NCBI RefSeq assembly: GCF_002787055.1
Contig: NZ_CP024808.1
Location: 1,204,328-1,268,327, forward strand
Direction: 5' to 3'
DNA: 64,000 bases
Origin: Candidatus Nitrosotenuis aquarius
GTDB taxonomy: Archaea; Thermoproteota; Nitrososphaeria; Nitrososphaerales; Nitrosopumilaceae
Shown: positions 26,653 through 35,721 of the stretch, piece by piece
How the letters are laid out: every line of letters starts with the position of its first letter
How positions within the stretch are numbered: the stretch's first letter is position 1
Notes under the pieces: generated by a model
Databases searched by the model: none
What the model was told of the DNA's origin: nothing
Seen by the model: the letters and a program-made list of their open reading frames with translations, nothing else
Translations under genes and position numbers: made by a program

Positions 26653-26674
26653 GTGTTTTGATGTGATGGTGTTT

Positions 26675-28096
26675 ATGATTAGCGATGTTGGTGCCGCATT
26701 AAATTTTGTAATCAACAAGGGCTTTCAAATTCATCCAGACGCGCTAAAGATACTAGAGCAAATAGACGTAAAAGAACTAGAGAGGATCATAAAGCAAATC
26801 GTAAAGGAAAAGGAACGCCAGCAACTATACCTAATTTCGCAAAAAGACTTGGAGTCATTCCTAGGAATTAAAGAGGATGAATCAATAGAGGACAGACACG
26901 AAATTCTCTACGATCCCACGCCTAACCTTGCTTCTGCGGAAGGAGTCCAAGGATTTACTGCCCTTTTCTCTAGTAGGTACGCCAAGCTAAAGCGAATCAT
27001 GTCCAATAGACCCGAGGCAAAGATGGTCAAATCCATTTCTGCCGTAATTTCCACCAAGTCCAAAGATGAGGTCTATGTGTGTGGTTTGGTAACAGACAGG
27101 CGAACCGACAGAAATGTCACCAAAATAACACTAGAGGACCCCAGTGGAATAATGGAAACTATAGTAGTTGACGAGGAGCTCCAAAAAACAGCCTCTGGCT
27201 TGCTAATGGACCAGTTTGTAATGGAAAAAATTGTCACAAGTAAAAACGGCGGCTTTATTGTCAAGGATATCATTTTGCCCGACATTCCAGATCATGCAGC
27301 AAACCGCTCAAAGACAGAGGCCTATGCCGTATTTGTCTCGGATCTGCATGTTGGCTCTAAATATTTCATGGAAAAGGAATTCTCGGATTTGGTTGCCTGG
27401 CTTTCAAGCCCAGATCCAATAGCAAAAAAGGTCCGATTTTTCATCTTGGGCGGCGACGTGGTGGATGGAATTGGAATCTACCCAAACCAAGACAAGGAGC
27501 TAGTGGCGCTAAACACCCAAGACCAACTAAAACTATTATACGAGATTTTGGACAAAGTCCCAAAACACATCAAAGTATTCATCGCGCCTGGAAACCACGA
27601 CCCAGGGAGAAGGGCGTTGCCCCAACCAGCAATTCCTGCAAAATATAATCCAGATTTGTGGGGCAGGAAGAACTTTTTCATGGTAGGCAATCCGGCCATA
27701 ATATCGCTAAACGGCGTCAAGGTCCTAATTTTCCACGGCCAGTCAGTGGACGATATTGTAAAGACCACGCCTGGCCTAAGCTACGACAAGCCAGCCAAGG
27801 TAATGCAGTATTTACTAAAAGCTAGGCATCTGAGCCCAATTTATGGAGCGCAAACCCCCCTTGCGCCAGAACTAGAAGACCATATGGTAATTGACGAGGT
27901 GCCAGACATTTTCCATGCGGGACACGTCCATGTAATAGATCTGGACCTGTACAAGAACATACTAATTCTGAACTCGGGTGCCTGGCAATCACAGACTCCT
28001 TTCCAGTCAGGAGTAGGAATTACGCCAACACCGGCAGTCGCAGTCTTGGTAAATCTGAAGACCTTCAAGGTCTATACCAAGGATTTTTCTAAATAA
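26675..28096 (+). CDS. polB: DNA polymerase D small subunit (DP1)
   Basis: 473 residues from ATG 26,675 (ATG 26,666 and GTG 26,663 are alternatives), chosen from the TATA spacing. OB-fold region about 110-210, then a calcineurin-like nuclease domain: SDLHVGSKYF, LGGDVVDGIG, APGNHDPGRR, IFHGQSVDD and AGHVHVIDLDL. DP1 provides the 3'-5' proofreading activity of PolD, the main replicative polymerase in many archaea. The large subunit is at 32,347, and Orc1/Cdc6 lies convergent just downstream. Confidence 0.95.
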   Translation: MISDVGAALNFVINKGFQIHPDALKILEQIDVKELERIIKQIVKEKERQQLYLISQKDLESFLGIKEDESIEDRHEILYDPTPNLASAEGVQGFTALFSSRYAKLKRIMSNRPEAKMVKSISAVISTKSKDEVYVCGLVTDRRTDRNVTKITLEDPSGIMETIVVDEELQKTASGLLMDQFVMEKIVTSKNGGFIVKDIILPDIPDHAANRSKTEAYAVFVSDLHVGSKYFMEKEFSDLVAWLSSPDPIAKKVRFFILGGDVVDGIGIYPNQDKELVALNTQDQLKLLYEILDKVPKHIKVFIAPGNHDPGRRALPQPAIPAKYNPDLWGRKNFFMVGNPAIISLNGVKVLIFHGQSVDDIVKTTPGLSYDKPAKVMQYLLKARHLSPIYGAQTPLAPELEDHMVIDEVPDIFHAGHVHVIDLDLYKNILILNSGAWQSQTPFQSGVGITPTPAVAVLVNLKTFKVYTKDFSK

Positions 28097-29294
28097 TATC
28101 TTCCAGTGTCGCTTCCGACTTGAATGTCTCTTTGACAGTCTCTGGCGAAATCGTCAGTGTGAATTTCTTTGTCCTTCCATGAATTCCTTGGTGGACAATT
28201 TTGCCGGAAATAATCCCAGACATTTCAATTTCAGATAGCATTTGAGTAACTCGTCTTTGAGTTAGCTCTTTTTGGCGTATTTGCTTGCAAAGGGTCTTGT
28301 ATGCGGAATAGATCTCGCCCGTAGAAAGACCTGACGCCTTCATTACTGCCACGATTAAGAGTTTTTCATGCAGTGGGTAGGATTGGAGTGCTGTTGTTTC
28401 CTTGTCTTCTTCTATTTTTGATGAGGCAGTCCTGATGTGTTCTTCCGTTACTTTGCTTGCCTGAGCTCGCTCGGCTATCTCGCCTGCCACTCGGAGTAGG
28501 TCGATTGCACGCCTGGCATCGCCGTGCTCTCTGCCTGCCATTGCAGCACAAAGATTTAGCGCCGAGTCCTCTACTGTACCTTCAGCAAACGCCTCCTTGA
28601 TTCTCTCCTTTAGGATCTCTTTTAGCTGGTCCACGGAATAATTGGTAAAGATAATCTCTTCTTCAGATAATGAACTAATTACGCGTGGGTCCAGCCTTTC
28701 TTTGAAGGTAAGGTCGTTTGATATTCCTACAAGGGTCAGTGAGCCGTTCTTTAGGCGCTCATTTGCCCTGGTTAGTTGATACATGACGTCCTTGCCCGTC
28801 TTTGAAATTAGGTGGGCTAGGTAGTCGATTTCATCTATTACAAAGACAATGTTGTATTGGTTTTTCTCTATTGCCTTTAACAGCCTCTTGAAAACCTCCG
28901 ATATTGAAAGCCCTGTTGCCGGAATCTGGTCTTCATCCAAGTCCAACTGCCTGCCAATGCTTACAAACAAGCTATAGAGGGTTGCCTCATCCTTGGCATT
29001 AGAATAGATTAGTTTGATTGGGAATTTTGATTTCTCTACCCGTTGTTGTATTTTGTCCAGTATTTTTTTTATAACTAGGGTTTTGCCGGTGCCTGGCTTG
29101 CCGTATACAATTAGGTTAGACGGTCTTGACTGCTTCAAAATAGGTGATAATGATTGGGTAACCTTTTCGAGCTCCTCGTTTCGGTGCAGGATCAATTCCG
29201 GTAAATAAGAAAAATGTAAAACCTTGCGGTTTTTAATTATGGACTTGCCGCTTTCCATATTATCCAATAATCTGTCGACTGGGTCTTCGGTCAA
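28089..29294 (-). CDS. cdc6: Orc1/Cdc6 origin-recognition ATPase
   Basis: 401 residues from TTG 29,294. Walker A GKPGTGKT at 65-72, Walker B VFVIDEIDYL near 148, sensor 1 TLVGISND, sensor 2 GDARRAIDLLR, and a C-terminal winged helix (from about 310) with REL-type RRVTQMLSEIEMSG. Binds and melts the origin and loads MCM. The upstream intergenic region carries repeated motifs expected for its binding. Overlaps DP1 by 8 bp, convergently. Confidence 0.95.
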   Translation of the reverse strand: MTEDPVDRLLDNMESGKSIIKNRKVLHFSYLPELILHRNEELEKVTQSLSPILKQSRPSNLIVYGKPGTGKTLVIKKILDKIQQRVEKSKFPIKLIYSNAKDEATLYSLFVSIGRQLDLDEDQIPATGLSISEVFKRLLKAIEKNQYNIVFVIDEIDYLAHLISKTGKDVMYQLTRANERLKNGSLTLVGISNDLTFKERLDPRVISSLSEEEIIFTNYSVDQLKEILKERIKEAFAEGTVEDSALNLCAAMAGREHGDARRAIDLLRVAGEIAERAQASKVTEEHIRTASSKIEEDKETTALQSYPLHEKLLIVAVMKASGLSTGEIYSAYKTLCKQIRQKELTQRRVTQMLSEIEMSGIISGKIVHQGIHGRTKKFTLTISPETVKETFKSEATLEDII

Positions 29295-29753
29295 CTCTCA
29301 CACCTCAATTTCCAGTCCATTACAACTTTGACTATTCATGAAGTGTTTAGAATGAATATGATAGTTTGAGTTTAGTTGGTAATTAATTATTTTTAATTTG
29401 ATTTTCATAAAAAAATTTAGAAAGAAAAAGAGTGGAAATGATGGTGTGTGGGAAATTCACAAAAAGTTAACGTTGTGTTAAGAAAAGGACCAAAAAAGGC
29501 AATTTTGACCCCATTATTTCGAGTCCAGGCGTGAAGGTTGCCATTAACATTGTTAACGAGCCAGAATAGACCCAATTATTTCCACTCCAGGCATGGAAAA
29601 TAGGAGTTTAGGAGTCTGAAAAGGGGGTTAGCCTGTTAACATGTGAATTTTGGCCAGGCGTGGGCTACGTAGTCAACGTTAACAACGCTGGGAGTTAACA
29701 AAGCTGGCCGGATCCGTTCATTTGTTAACCAGTTAACACGATCGATCACGAAA
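29295..29753. other. Candidate replication origin (oriC)
   Basis: 459-bp gap next to cdc6. Seven GTTAAC hexamers (29,466; 29,552; 29,635; 29,678; 29,694; 29,724; 29,732), three CCAGGCRTG motifs in the same orientation (29,525; 29,587; 29,654), two of them inside a longer ATTATTTC-S-A-S-TCCAGGC repeat (29,513-29,533 and 29,575-29,595), a related AATTTCCAGTCCA at 29,307-29,319, and an AT-rich run at 29,380-29,432 that could unwind. No tRNA or ORF fits here. Confidence 0.75.
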
Positions 29754-30140
29754 ATGGCAAAGAAAAGGATACGAATAGACCTCGAAGACTCGGATGGAGC
29801 CAAGTACAACTTTAACATCGAGGGCAACATAACCCGGGACAAGGTCATCAAAATATTCGAATTAATGAACCTCATGAATATAGAGGACCAGGACGAGGCA
29901 CCCCAATTGGACTCAGTAGGGGCTAAAATCTGGCATATTGTGGACAAATACTTCCCAATGGGCAACTTTACCTCTAATGAAATACTGGAAAAATACGAAG
30001 ACGAATACAATGAACCCATTAAACTAAGCATAATTTCGACCTATTTGGCCAGATTCAACACCAAAGGAAGGATTAACCGCCTGCGTCAGGGCAAAGCCTG
30101 GGTATACCAAATAGCCAAAATTCCTCAGAAAACCGACTAG
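29754..30140 (+). CDS. Origin-adjacent conserved protein, possible winged helix
   Basis: 128 residues starting at the edge of the repeat-rich region. N-terminal strand pair with MAKKRIRIDLEDSDGAKYNF, then a helical half with SNEILEKYEDEYNEPIKLSIISTYL and a K/R-rich wing-like end (RINRLRQGKAWVYQIA), consistent with a winged helix. Two GTTAAC boxes lie within 30 bp of its start, so it may bind them. By position it is a candidate accessory origin factor (compare WhiP of Crenarchaeota), but homology is not shown. Confidence 0.65.
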   Translation: MAKKRIRIDLEDSDGAKYNFNIEGNITRDKVIKIFELMNLMNIEDQDEAPQLDSVGAKIWHIVDKYFPMGNFTSNEILEKYEDEYNEPIKLSIISTYLARFNTKGRINRLRQGKAWVYQIAKIPQKTD

Positions 30141-30298
30141 GAGATATTTACTCGCTTTAGTATGAGCGAGTCTCCTTGAAGGCTGACTTTGACATAATCA
30201 CCCTTCTGAATGCCCAAGTATTTGCGGAATTGTTTTGGTATTGAGATGGTTCCTACAGCCGTGATCTTGACTAGTTCATCATTTTCTGTAAGCATCAT
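30137..30298 (-). CDS. SpoVT/AbrB-family small DNA-binding protein
   Basis: 53 residues from ATG 30,298 (or the next ATG, 30,295). VKITAVGTISIPKQFRKYLGIQKGDYVKVSL is the AbrB swapped-hairpin signature followed by a final strand SLILKRV. Its end overlaps the stop of the 29,754 gene. A TTAAATATCTT-type AT-rich box lies just upstream (30,310-30,325). Likely a local regulator; target unknown. Confidence 0.72.
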   Translation of the reverse strand: MMLTENDELVKITAVGTISIPKQFRKYLGIQKGDYVKVSLQGDSLILKRVNIS

Positions 30299-30463
30299 AT
30301 TAGATTATTAAATTAAGATATTTAAAACTTCTTGAATTAGTAAAACATAATAAAATTTTAGTGGAAAAGTAGGAAATTAGGTTAAACTAATGAAAATATT
30401 ACCATCTGTGTATTTTATTAGGAAAGCCTAATGAAAATATCTAATGAAATTCCCTTTGAAAAC
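30299..30463. other. AT-rich intergenic region with short repeats
   Basis: Contains CTAATGAAAATATT (30,388-30,401), CCTAATGAAAATATC (30,427-30,441) and CTAATGAAATTCC (30,441-30,453), three related copies of CTAATGAAA, plus TATA-like sequences. No ORF or RNA recognised. Confidence 0.35.
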
Positions 30464-31045
30464 TTAGGCCGTAATTGGTTGTTCTTGGTTTCCTAGTTTG
30501 GCCTTTCCCTTTTCTGTGATCTGATACGTAAATGGCTTGGTCTTGTTGTTTCTCTGAACAAAACCTTCCTCGAAAAGCCTCTTCATTAATCTGGATGTGT
30601 GTTCTCTACTTCTCCCTATTGTGATTTGGATGTCACGTGACGTCATTTCCTTGGCTGTGATTAATCCTAAGACGTGTTCTGCTATGCCTTCAAAACCCAT
30701 ATTAGGCATTCTTGGCTTTGGAGCAGGCTTGGTAGACTCGATTTTGACCTCTTCTGGCTCTTTTTGGACTTGTTTTTCCGCCTTTTTCTCCAAAATAGGC
30801 TCGACTTTGGTCAAAAGCTGCTCTTCGGGTAGTTTTTCCTCGAGATCCATGGCATCTAGGCGTATTTTCATGTCAATTAACTGCCTTTCATAATATTCTA
30901 GGCGTGACAAATAGGCAGGATCTGAGGTCTTTTGTGTGCTCAGAGTCTTGATTTTACCATAAATCATCATACCAAAGACCCCAACTGCGAATGCAACTAC
31001 GACATATGCTATGACCTGAGGGTCGGGAATCTCTACTAACATCAC
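30464..31045 (-). CDS. Membrane-anchored winged-helix protein
   Basis: 193 residues. One membrane helix at about 11-30, a charged coiled-coil segment (about 45-100, SRLEYYERQLIDMKIRLDAM and EEVKIES), a Pro/Lys linker and a C-terminal winged helix (about 115-185: HVLGLITAKEMTSRDIQITIGRSREHTSRLMKRLFEEGFVQR type). The topology suggests a membrane-tethered transcription regulator or chromosome anchor near the origin. Not assigned to a named family. Confidence 0.72.
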   Translation of the reverse strand: MMLVEIPDPQVIAYVVVAFAVGVFGMMIYGKIKTLSTQKTSDPAYLSRLEYYERQLIDMKIRLDAMDLEEKLPEEQLLTKVEPILEKKAEKQVQKEPEEVKIESTKPAPKPRMPNMGFEGIAEHVLGLITAKEMTSRDIQITIGRSREHTSRLMKRLFEEGFVQRNNKTKPFTYQITEKGKAKLGNQEQPITA

Positions 31046-31166
31046 TTAGTTGTGAAGATCTATGTGATTTATCATGATTGGCCAACTAATCTTCACACTT
31101 TGTATCAACTTACATATCATAACTAATCACTATATTTCAAAACAGTTAGAGTTGGGTTGTGATTCG

Positions 31167-31529
31167 TCACATTCCACATGCTTGACGAACCAATTTGTCT
31201 ATAACATTTGTCACTTGTTCCTCTCTTTCTGGGAAAACATCACTATTTTTTATCACAGAAACCTGCTCTGCGAGCCTAGATATCACATCAATGTCATCTG
31301 GAAGTAATATGCCTAGGCCACGAAGCAGAATTATCGAATAAAATAATCCCATCAACTTCTCCCTGGATTGGTTTACTTGGCGGAAATATGCGCCCTTACT
31401 GATGCCGAACTCGAACTCGGCGAGGTTCTTTCGATTTAAAATAATTTGAATTTGTCGCTCTGTAAACAATGATTTTTTGATAATTTGCTTGATAATATTG
31501 TTAAAATTAGACTCATCAATCTCTGCCAT
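31167..31529 (-). CDS. Hypothetical protein, HTH-like
   Basis: 120 residues, helical, with a central helix-turn-helix-like run (LFTERQIQIILNRKNLAEFEF) followed by YFRQVNQSREKLMGLFYSI. Conserved-looking but I do not recognise the family. It is divergent from the GGGP synthase gene. No membrane segment beyond one hydrophobic helix (FYSIILLRGLGILL). Confidence 0.6.
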   Translation of the reverse strand: MAEIDESNFNNIIKQIIKKSLFTERQIQIILNRKNLAEFEFGISKGAYFRQVNQSREKLMGLFYSIILLRGLGILLPDDIDVISRLAEQVSVIKNSDVFPEREEQVTNVIDKLVRQACGM

Positions 31530-32346: not shown

Positions 32347-35300
32347 ATGTCAGAGAATGCGGCGATCTCCCGAATTCAGGGAATCCCAATGCCAAACCAC
32401 TACCTTGATTATTATTCCAAAATATCAGAGCAGGTCTACCAAATCTTTGAAAAGGCTGCCGAGGCAAAATCGACCCTAGTTGATTCCTCTGGAATAGTGG
32501 AACCTAAGATAGCGTTTGATCTGGCAGATAGGGTTGCCAAAATGCACGACATTGACATCGCCGAGCCCTTGAGGGAATTATTAAAGACCAAGGGAAAGGA
32601 GCTTGCGGCACTGGAATTATCAAAAAGCATTGCCTTGGGGCAATATCTTCCAGAGGACACCACACTGGAGCAAAGACTAGACAATGCCGTGCGCGTAGGC
32701 TTGGCCATAGTAACCGAAGGCGTCACAATTGCGCCCCTGCAGGGAATTTCAAGCGTTACTATTAAGAAAAACAAGGACGGAACCGACTATCTTTCGGTAT
32801 CCATTGCCGGCCCGATGCGTTCTGCTGGGGGGACAGAGTCTGCAGTTACCATGCTGATTGCAGACCATGTAAGGCAAACAGTAGGGCTAGCAAAATACCA
32901 GGCAAATGCCTTTGATGACGAAACAGGCAGATTCGTAGAGGAATTGCGCATCTATGAGAGGGATGTTGGCAGCTTTCAGTATCACGTCCAAGACCAGGAC
33001 ATTATCACAGTAATTGCTAATCTGCCAGTAGAACTTGATGGTGTGGATACGGACCCAAACGAGGTGGTCAACCACAAAAACATGGCAAGAATCAAGACAG
33101 ACCGGGTTCGTGGCGGTGCTCTACGCGTACTAAACGACGGCCTCATTGGCAGGGCAAAAAAACTGCTAAAGAGAATAGAACTGTACAAGCTTGACGGATG
33201 GGATTGGCTTGGCGAACTCAAGGGAGCAGTCCAAAAGGGAGAGGAGGGCGACTCGGCGGCAAAGCGCCTCAAGGAGGTAATTACCGGAAGATCTGTTTTA
33301 TCAATGCCAAACAAAATAGGCGGATTTCGCCTAAGATATGGCAGGTCTTGCAACACGGGCTTTGCGTCTGTAGGGATTCATCCAGTAGTGGCAGAAATCC
33401 TAAACCATACCATAGCGGTTGGAACCCAAATAAAGCTGGACGTTCCAGGCAAAGGCGCAACGGTTGCCTTTGTGGATTCCATTGACACGCCTATTGTTAG
33501 GCTCAAAAACGGCAATGTTGTCAAAATACAAACAGTAGAGCAGGGAATTAAAATCAAGGACGACATTGAGCGAATTCTGTACCTTGGCGACATTCTGATC
33601 TCATTTGGCGACTTTTTGGAAAATAATGCGCAGCTCATACCTTCTGGATATGTAGAGGAATTCTGGCTAGAGGAGCTGGCGCAAAAAATCCAACAATATG
33701 AGGCAAAGACGGAATTGCAGGAATTTCTGGTAAAAACCCCGACACTAGAAGAAGCCTTGGAGATATCCCTGAATTTTCAGATTCCACTGCATCCAAAGTA
33801 TCTGTTTTATTGGGAGCAGATCTCGCCTGCTGAGCTGGAAATATTACTCAAGCCAACTACAATAGAAGATGAGAGAATAATCTATTCAATGCATGCAAAG
33901 CCAATCCTTGAAAAAATAGGCGTGCCGCACACAATACAGGATGACTCTGTGGTATTATCGGAAATAGAGGCAGATGTGTTTTACCAAATTCTATTATCAA
34001 ACCAGGTGCAAATAGACCACACAGACTCGGTTCCACAAATCTTGAGTCGAACAACCGGCATCAAAATTAGGCCCAAGTTTTCTGCCTCTATAGGTGTTCG
34101 AATCGGCAGGCCTGAAAAGGCAGCAGCTCGACTAATGAAGCCCCCAGTGCATACTTTGTTTCCGATTGGCGACAAGGGTGGTAGCACTCGCGACTTGCTC
34201 AAGGCAAGCAACGGATCTGAATTTTACTGCAACATCTACAATAGAATTTGCAAGAACTGCAACATTCCTTCAATTAGCATAAACTGTCCAAGGTGCTCAA
34301 ACAGAACCGTAATAGAGCACACATGTCCACTTTGCAGGTCTGTTCTGGATTCGACATTTTGCCAAAAATGCAAGAAAAAGGTCCCAACCCATTCGTTCAA
34401 GCCTTTCCCGCTAAAGGAGAGAATCATCGCCGCTCAGGAAAAAATAGGTGTCCGAGTCCAGGAGCCGTTCAAGGGAGTAATGGAGCTGATAAACCAAGAC
34501 AGAATTGCAGAGCCATTGGAGAAGGGACTCATACGACAGAGCCTTGACTTGACTGTATTCAAGGACGGAACGGTTCGCTTTGATGCGACAAATTCCCCCC
34601 TGACCCACTTCAAGCCGGCATGGATTGGCACATCCATACAAAAACTACACGAGCTTGGTTATGACACTGACATTGACGGAAGACCACTGACCAGCCCTGA
34701 CCAAATTATAGAAATTAAGATGCAGGATATCATAATACCGCACGAGAGCGGAAAATACTTGGTTCAGACCTGCAAGTACATTGACACCGAACTTGCAAAA
34801 TTCTATGGCAAGTCCTCATTCTATAATGTCAGAAACACGGACGAGCTAATTGGGCATTTAGTGATTGGCCTGGCACCTCACACGTCTGTGGGAATAGTTG
34901 GCAGAATAATCGGATACACGGAAACACATGTCTGCTTTGGCACGCCAAACTGGCATTCCGCAAAAAGACGTGATGCCGACGGCGATGCCGACTCTATTAT
35001 GTTACTAATGGATGCTCTCTTGAATTTCTCAAGGCAGTTCCTATCTGATAAAATCGGCGGACTGATGGATGCGCCGCTTTTGGTCCAACCAGTCGTGTTG
35101 CCTCATGAATCCCAACCGCAGGCGCACAACTTTGAGGTGACAAAAAAACTCCCGCTAGAATTCTTTGAAGATACCATTTCTGCCAAAAAGGCATCCGAGG
35201 TCAAAAGCGTGGAGATAATAAAATCACGACTGGAAACGGAAAGGCAGTTCTATGATTATTATTTTACTCACACTACATCGACACTTACTACATCACGATC

Positions 35301-35721
35301 TAGAAGCGCATATTCCACACTTGGCTCGATGCTTGACAAATTCGACATGCAAATACGAAATGCAGAGCTGATCTCGGCAGTAGACACTACAGAAATTGTC
35401 ACCAATGTTATTACGACACATCTGGTACCTGATATCATTGGAAACCTTCGAGCATATGGCAGGCAGAAGTTCCGTTGCACTGCCTGCGGTCGAAAATACC
35501 GAAGGACTCCATTACTGCAACACTGCATTTGTGGAAACAACCTGATCCAGACAATTACTCGGCCTTCAATTGAGAAGTACCTCAGACTTGCAAAGCGCCT
35601 AGTTGAAAAATACGATGTGGGGCCTTATCTAAAGGGCAGAATTGGCACACTGGAAGATGAAATCAACTTGGTATTTGGGAAGCGTAGTGGCGACCAGTTG
35701 TTGTTGACTGACTACAATTAG
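32347..35721 (+). CDS. polC: DNA polymerase D large subunit (DP2)
   Basis: 1,124 residues with no intein, full length for the family. N-terminal domains (GPMRSAGGTESAVTML near 155), a Cys-rich zinc cluster near 635-685 (CKNCN, CPRCS, CPLC, CQKC), the catalytic acidic motif DADGDADS at 876-883, and a C-terminal zinc module (CTACGRKY, HCICG) that interacts with DP1/PCNA in other archaea. Catalytic subunit of the replicative polymerase. Co-transcribed with GGGP synthase. Confidence 0.96.
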   Translation: MSENAAISRIQGIPMPNHYLDYYSKISEQVYQIFEKAAEAKSTLVDSSGIVEPKIAFDLADRVAKMHDIDIAEPLRELLKTKGKELAALELSKSIALGQYLPEDTTLEQRLDNAVRVGLAIVTEGVTIAPLQGISSVTIKKNKDGTDYLSVSIAGPMRSAGGTESAVTMLIADHVRQTVGLAKYQANAFDDETGRFVEELRIYERDVGSFQYHVQDQDIITVIANLPVELDGVDTDPNEVVNHKNMARIKTDRVRGGALRVLNDGLIGRAKKLLKRIELYKLDGWDWLGELKGAVQKGEEGDSAAKRLKEVITGRSVLSMPNKIGGFRLRYGRSCNTGFASVGIHPVVAEILNHTIAVGTQIKLDVPGKGATVAFVDSIDTPIVRLKNGNVVKIQTVEQGIKIKDDIERILYLGDILISFGDFLENNAQLIPSGYVEEFWLEELAQKIQQYEAKTELQEFLVKTPTLEEALEISLNFQIPLHPKYLFYWEQISPAELEILLKPTTIEDERIIYSMHAKPILEKIGVPHTIQDDSVVLSEIEADVFYQILLSNQVQIDHTDSVPQILSRTTGIKIRPKFSASIGVRIGRPEKAAARLMKPPVHTLFPIGDKGGSTRDLLKASNGSEFYCNIYNRICKNCNIPSISINCPRCSNRTVIEHTCPLCRSVLDSTFCQKCKKKVPTHSFKPFPLKERIIAAQEKIGVRVQEPFKGVMELINQDRIAEPLEKGLIRQSLDLTVFKDGTVRFDATNSPLTHFKPAWIGTSIQKLHELGYDTDIDGRPLTSPDQIIEIKMQDIIIPHESGKYLVQTCKYIDTELAKFYGKSSFYNVRNTDELIGHLVIGLAPHTSVGIVGRIIGYTETHVCFGTPNWHSAKRRDADGDADSIMLLMDALLNFSRQFLSDKIGGLMDAPLLVQPVVLPHESQPQAHNFEVTKKLPLEFFEDTISAKKASEVKSVEIIKSRLETERQFYDYYFTHTTSTLTTSRSRSAYSTLGSMLDKFDMQIRNAELISAVDTTEIVTNVITTHLVPDIIGNLRAYGRQKFRCTACGRKYRRTPLLQHCICGNNLIQTITRPSIEKYLRLAKRLVEKYDVGPYLKGRIGTLEDEINLVFGKRSGDQLLLTDYN

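Follow-up and report, generated by a model that had tools for sequence, protein, structure and literature searches.

A second conserved box set and its candidate winged-helix reader at a probable ORB-type, orc1-adjacent origin of Candidatus Nitrosotenuis aquarius

Does the gap between two divergent genes of Candidatus Nitrosotenuis aquarius serve as a replication origin and, if so, which proteins would read its repeated sequences? The 459-bp gap lies at positions 29295-29753 of the window (the whole 64,000-nucleotide stretch of DNA that was analysed) and separates orc1/cdc6 on the minus strand from a gene at 29754-30140 on the plus strand. The initial annotation of this DNA had proposed a candidate chromosomal origin here, with a cluster of GTTAAC hexamers directly upstream of orc1/cdc6, and the gene order bears out that location: the initiator gene, an open reading frame at 28089-29294 (401 amino acids, TTG start), begins at 29294 on the minus strand. 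Its product matches the Pfam families Cdc6_lid (4.8e-26) and Cdc6_C (1.9e-20), and its closest relatives of solved structure are Sulfolobus Cdc6-1 (2qby_A, 6e-88) and Aeropyrum Orc1 (2v1u_A, 2e-84), both of which are complexes with DNA according to their PDB titles. DNA polymerase D genes lie on both sides of the locus (26663-28096 and 32347-35721). A further protein near the gap, encoded at 30464-31045, has an N-terminal hydrophobic stretch (judged by eye) and a TrmB-like winged-helix match that is weak and below cut-off. We rejected an RNA element as an account of the region, as an Rfam search of 28000-31500 returned no match.

We compared the gap with the origin recognition box (ORB) motif common to archaeal origins, given as TCCA[CG]T[TG]GAAA[TC][GA]AAGGGGT in a passage of the Ori-Finder 2 paper (PMC4164010). 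The canonical ORB had been described as not obvious at this locus, which is wrong: read on the minus strand, 29507-29533 (ORB 2, CACGCCTGGACTCGAAATAATGGGGTC) and 29569-29595 (ORB 1, CATGCCTGGAGTGGAAATAATTGGGTC) are ORBs that contain the G-string, each with four mismatches to the common motif, and they lie 62 bp apart. Two more ORB-like boxes, each with five mismatches, face one another closer to orc1. Box 4 (29296-29322, minus strand, TGGACTGGAAATTGAGGTGT) is 2 nt from the orc1 start codon, and box 3 (29428-29452, plus strand, AAGAGTGGAAATGATGGTGT) has the opposite orientation. Between these opposed ORBs lies a candidate unwinding stretch at 29323-29427 that is 80% AT, rising to 84% in 29360-29427, in agreement with the AT-rich stretch previously placed on the cdc6 side; AACTAAAAATAATTAATTACAAACTAAACT within it is conserved in an alignment of 76 origins.

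These ORBs also account for most of the CCAGGCRTG repeats. There are indeed three copies, all on the plus strand, at 29525, 29587 and 29654 (spacing 62 and 67 bp), and two of them do lie inside a longer repeat of 27 bp with 85% identity. CCAGGCRTG is the 5' flank of both ORB 1 and ORB 2. We therefore rejected CCAGGCRTG as a separate origin code, and the suggestion of a lineage-specific code in place of the ORB gives way to ordinary ORBs with CCAGGCRTG as their flank at two of the three places. Only the third copy stands alone, in a half-ORB at 29640-29664 (minus strand) that carries a third CACGCCTGG element without the G-string and whose CCCACGCCTRG is conserved in the alignment of 76 origins. 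This CACGCCTGG half-ORB lies beside a GTTAAC and is possibly a recognition unit in its own right.

Four ORB-like sites with four or five mismatches thus fall within 290 bp, and a match alone is weak evidence at this level, since an 853-kb sample of the genome contains 53 sites with at most five mismatches to the motif. The case for ORBs is carried instead by position, pairing and conservation, not by motif matches alone. Closer matches exist in relatives, for example TCCAGTGGAAACAAAGGGGT. Among 52 family origins that were not selected by any motif, the matching form of box 3 is present in 46 and the core expression of box 4 matches in 26, and the forward-ORB pair is spaced 61-62 bp apart in 41 (those in which the expression finds two). 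The pair is spaced similarly beyond the family, at 59-62 bp in 21 of 22 other Nitrososphaeria origins with at least two ORB matches. Because ORBs are present, two CCAGGCRTG copies are their flank and two more ORB-like boxes surround the AT-rich stretch, we conclude that 29295-29753 is very probably an ORB-type, orc1-adjacent origin of a known kind. The adjacency of orc1, the four ORB-like boxes, the flanked AT-rich stretch and the conservation of these elements all support the origin that had been proposed. By analogy with known archaeal origins, Orc1/Cdc6 would bind the ORBs that flank the AT-rich unwinding stretch, and the helicase would be loaded there; a model for Sulfolobus oriC1, in passages of a 2025 study, likewise places Orc1 on ORBs that oppose each other, from where it recruits MCM to the AT-rich stretch (PMC12141716).

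A competing account would deny the locus an active origin and place the start of replication at another site, such as the neighbourhood of a different Orc1 paralogue. Three diverged Orc1 paralogues are indeed encoded in this genome, at 326,830, 1,528,821 and 1,622,392, and GC skew does not mark the locus. When GC skew, which had been named as a check on the proposal, was computed over a sampled half of the genome, its extremes lay at 450 and 1298 kb (a weak signal, permutation p = 0.056), and the extreme expected of an origin under the G-rich-leading-strand convention lay at ~450 kb, not at the 1,234 kb of this locus; GC skew over that half shows no turn at the locus, and AT skew gave no lead. 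Against this account, relatives across the family keep the ORBs, the boxes and the AT-rich stretch at this locus, and a single origin has been mapped in the related N. maritimus according to passages of PMC4010727. Ori-Finder 2 makes its calls at intergenic regions that bear ORBs and adjoin replication genes, and in passages of its paper the single prediction for N. maritimus is marked as true (PMC4164010). We therefore regard an origin elsewhere as highly improbable. The three further Orc1/Cdc6 paralogues, all outside the window, share 27-31% identity with the origin-linked Orc1.

The remaining feature of the gap is the GTTAAC cluster itself. As the initial annotation had claimed, seven copies occur within 272 bp: box 1 at 29466-29471, box 2 at 29552-29557 between ORB 2 and ORB 1, box 3 at 29635-29640 (ATTAAC in many relatives), boxes 4, 5 and 6 at 29678-29683, 29694-29699 and 29724-29729, and box 7 at 29732-29737, which is found in a minority of the relatives examined. 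Boxes 4 to 6 form a fixed triplet with start-to-start spacings of 16 and 30 bp. All of the boxes (29466-29737) lie outside the AT-rich stretch at 29323-29427, and the 29754 start codon follows boxes 6 and 7 at a distance of 17-30 bp. The chance expectation had been put at below 0.1, and it is lower still: at the rate outside the cluster, 0.017 copies are expected per 272 bp (Poisson P of at least seven copies, 7e-17). The whole genome (1,697,207 bp, one contig) contains 112 GTTAAC. Among the 100 of these 112 places that were listed, one further pair is spaced 300 bp or less, and the sampled half of the genome holds no further trio within that distance. In that half, only two other places hold four copies of the related word TTAACA within 459 bp (184854-185242 and 1029210-1029978), and these are possible further binding sites.

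A palindromic hexamer that clusters at an origin and has few copies elsewhere could be a methylation or restriction site that marks the origin. GATC marks oriC of E. coli in this way, and GTTAAC is presumably an HpaI-type site. We had suspected from a dinucleotide expectation that GTTAAC is avoided genome-wide, and a maximal-order Markov model gave this no support (59 seen versus 67 expected in half of the genome), so the hexamer is not avoided beyond expectation. Moreover, other lineages carry a non-palindromic word, TTCACA, in the same place, and we consider a methylation or restriction mark very improbable.

Conservation in relatives had been named beforehand as a check, and both the boxes and the ORBs are kept across the family. 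We scanned a collection of 84,980 species for the exact 30/16-bp GTTAAC triplet and found it in 115 DNA stretches, of which 95 also contain orc1 and/or the gene for the winged-helix (wH) protein encoded at 29754-30140 (92 from Nitrososphaerota and 3 without a phylum name); the 20 that contain neither are mostly bacterial. The triplet also matched three viral contigs, none of which contains the wH gene or orc1 (L156, the one read further, has phage-like bacterial reading frames), and viral carriage was rejected. As the 115 loci were selected by the triplet itself, its conservation among them is built in, and the unbiased count is therefore that of loci fetched by their Orc1 or wH protein. This search fetched 65 family loci, of which 61 were usable and 52 distinct. 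All 52 contain three to seven GTTAAC, and 37 contain the exact 30/16-bp triplet. In an alignment that took in the 76 of 83 origins shorter than 500 bp, the boxes, the ORBs and the AT-rich stretch form distinct conserved blocks, and the spacing of GTTAAC is kept across Nitrosopumilaceae. Seven single-contig genomes of this family (G017, G046, G068, G070, G080, G119 and G190) start ~145-153 bp before the orc1 match, so that part of the origin falls at each end of the contig in these genomes.

An unsupervised scan for over-represented 6-mers, which was blind to GTTAAC, recovered the same element. In the 20 of the 52 f1 origins that were used, TTAACA was seen 214 times versus 18.1 expected and GTTAAC 99 times versus 3.9, and in 24 origins of six other families (f2, f3, f5, f7, f9 and f11) TTAACA was seen 211 times versus 25.1; GTTAAC and TTAACA were the two top words in both sets. 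Five origins from f4, f6 and f8 have no GTTAAC, and their top word is TTCACA (22 seen, 2.3 expected), as it is in 20 origins from other classes of the phylum (95 seen, 10.7 expected). Most Nitrososphaeria families have TTAACA in this intergenic region; TTCACA takes its place in other families of the class and in further classes. The box variants differ by one base, TT[A/C]ACA, and GTTAAC is the palindromic form of the TTAACA unit.

A natural candidate for the reader of these boxes is the 128-amino-acid product of the divergent reading frame at 29754-30140 (plus strand), which the initial annotation had named as a possible GTTAAC-binding factor. A Pfam search of this protein found no family at cut-off. 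Its predicted structure consists of a beta-beta-alpha part followed by one winged helix, with helix 91-104 at the position of the recognition helix; the model is middling overall (mean pLDDT 68, pTM 0.49) and better in the winged-helix part (pLDDT about 78-88). A Foldseek search with the full model gave no match at E <= 0.001, and VIA-align with residues 48-125 aligned winged-helix proteins, including Fur, BlaI and the wH domains of Orc1, at Z scores of 6.3 or less, which is below the level that shows kinship. The nearest likeness is to the BlaI/MecI/CopY repressors (Pfam Penicillinase_R), with which the protein shares a winged helix and a similar recognition helix (2k4b_A, E = 0.05). Penicillinase_R matches weakly in 25 of 44 relatives of the window protein, which itself scores 15.8 bits versus a cut-off of 22.6 and so does not reach the gathering score of that family; it differs from these repressors by its N-terminal beta-beta-alpha part and its location at an origin. 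WhiP/Cdt1-like origin proteins have a two-winged-helix architecture. A profile built from family members detects the wH protein in 144 of the 160 class genomes (131 of the 134 good ones) and in 117 of the 200 phylum genomes (104 of the 174 good ones). Among the 143 class genomes with both genes, wH is divergent from orc1 and within 1.5 kb of it in 121 and divergent across contig ends in 10; the other 12 are otherwise arranged (in 4 the genes are on different contigs, in 4 they share a strand, and in 4 they are divergent but 2-3 kb apart).

The base that differs between box variants is matched by one residue of the wH protein. Residue 93, part of the opening turn of the predicted recognition helix, was first picked by eye, on loci that were also part of the later test set. 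Of 200 loci in all, 192 were usable and 147 had an adjacent orc1, leaving 142 distinct wH proteins whose origins we typed as TTAACA (79), TTCACA (51), mixed (8) or box-poor (4). Residue 93 is I, V, L or A in 78 of the 79 TTAACA origins (I 47, V 20, L 6, A 5; T 1) and T in 49 of the 51 TTCACA origins (A 1, M 1). The exceptions are L253 (T with TTAACA), L322 (A with TTCACA) and L360 (M with TTCACA); M also occurs with TTAACA in f2. When all 118 columns of the wH alignment were ranked, residue 93 came first both in leave-one-family-out accuracy (0.975, versus 0.772 for the next column) and in mutual information. By family majority, it is not T in 9 of 9 TTAACA units and is T in 9 of 9 TTCACA units (Fisher p = 4e-5). 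Among the TTCACA families, f4 and f6 share an order with f1, and f8 shares the class of f1. Families f54 and f23 lie beyond that class and combine TTAACA or mixed boxes with V or A (one box-poor f23 locus has T). This covariation strongly supports the earlier suggestion, and from it we infer that the 29754 protein binds the boxes; on these sequence comparisons, it is very likely their reader.

The covariation could also arise if the boxes were read by another protein, such as Orc1, an Orc1 paralogue or a nucleoid protein, with residue 93 tracking the base through shared ancestry alone. The column scan was confined to the wH protein, and independent switches are few: on a wH tree built without the residue 93 column from 75 of 130 typed loci, box type changes four times, two of them on supported branches, and the direction of residue 93 agrees in 1.9 of 2 pairs on average. 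With fewer than six independent pairs significance is unreachable, so shared ancestry may still explain the pattern. Set against this, the best of the 118 wH columns falls within the first turn of the predicted recognition helix, and orc1-bearing genomes without a wH profile match do not have enriched boxes. In 20 such genomes we saw no enrichment upstream of orc1 (TTAACA 11 versus 15.6 expected; TTCACA 11 versus 9.0), a control that includes one weakly wH-positive genome, G266 (L382, f37); the f37 controls L382-L384 contribute 8 of the 11 TTCACA. The weak wH matches came from a single-sequence search, in G266 (E = 1.5e-6) and G275 (2.1e-5). We thus find a different reader unlikely and favor the wH protein.

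If the wH protein reads the boxes, they could still be no more than an operator through which it represses its own gene and orc1, lying near the origin because the genes do. The position of boxes 6 and 7 before the 29754 start codon and the weak resemblance of the wH core to BlaI/CopY-type repressors would fit such an operator. Genomes in which the two genes have separated bear on this. In 0.95-kb stretches from 10 genomes with wH away from orc1 (f21, f41, f26 and f16), TTCACA was seen 44 times upstream of orc1 (4.8 expected) and 7 times upstream of wH (4.0 expected). ORB-like sites are upstream of orc1, and none upstream of wH, in 8 of 8 genomes of f21, f41 and f26, and in f2 the boxes are within 461 bp of orc1, save a few scattered copies, with wH ~3 kb away (3 of 3 loci). 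The arrangement is reversed in f16, which has few TTCACA and ORB-like sites upstream of wH in 3 of 5 genomes and upstream of orc1 in 0 of 5, and in the single f51 genome, where ORB and boxes are both at wH. Residue 93 is T in all members of f21, f41, f26, f16 and f51 that were read, and M or I in f2. After gene separation, the boxes mostly remain with the ORBs: where wH has moved away, box enrichment is found upstream of orc1, beside the ORBs, and not at wH, and in f16 and f51 the ORBs remain at wH, away from orc1. As the boxes are also interleaved with the ORBs at fixed spacing, an operator function alone seems improbable. The f16 loci (L413-L416, L431-L436) may represent an origin whose initiator gene is no longer its neighbour.

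Taken as a whole, the comparisons indicate that this is probably an Orc1-adjacent origin with Orc1 on the ORBs and the wH protein on the TTAACA units, helping initiation. The wH product of 29754-30140 would bind TTAACA units at fixed spacings beside and between the ORBs and, given the position of the boxes at the origin, we infer a role in initiation, most likely as an origin architecture or licensing factor that aids Orc1 assembly or times firing. It could in addition repress its own gene via boxes 6 and 7 near its own start.

To our knowledge, archaeal origin proteins beyond Orc1 are hardly known. What is new here is the second box set and its proposed wH reader; the ORB origin itself is known. 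Passages of earlier work describe ORB origins adjoining orc1, including that of N. maritimus (PMC4010727, PMC4164010, PMC5797428), and the locus shares with the origins described there the orc1 neighbour, the ORBs with G-string and the AT-rich stretch between opposed ORBs. It adds a second conserved set of boxes (TTAACA or TTCACA) and a cognate winged-helix gene. In the titles, abstracts and passages of the open-access literature that we searched, this wH protein and TTAACA/TTCACA boxes at archaeal origins are undescribed; passages from a 2008 context study of 27 genomes name other cdc6 neighbours, and the word "winged" is absent from them (PMC2643942). The closest parallel is the ucm element of Sulfolobus oriC1 and its binding protein UBP, likewise a small protein that is not an initiator and has a sequence element of its own within an ORB origin (PMC12141716). 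As described in passages of that study, UBP has 111 amino acids, binds by beta-hairpins to ucm in the unwinding stretch and occupies over 300 chromosomal sites, and its fold is a strand-swapped beta saddle (PMC12141716). Here, in contrast, a winged helix is predicted, several boxes lie outside the AT stretch, one cluster is seen in the genome and the gene is usually beside orc1. Passages of the same study hold that Desulfurococcales and Sulfolobales acquired UBP relatively recently, and its closing sentence asks for analogous proteins in more divergent lineages (PMC12141716).

We judge it evenly balanced whether a two-protein code extends across the phylum, to many Thermoproteota outside the wH-less (Sulfolobus-like) families. 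In such a code, Orc1 would read the ORBs and the wH protein TT[A/C]ACA, with a single residue of the recognition helix determining which base is read; both proteins would be ancestral in the phylum, and UBP a later replacement where wH was lost. The gene, the boxes and the specificity switch are testable candidates for ammonia oxidisers and many other archaea, and they offer a route to spotting origins from DNA alone, perhaps even where orc1 has moved off, as in f16. Upstream of wH at one locus (L413 in genome G284), TTTACA occurs eight times in 0.96 kb and is a possible third version of the box.
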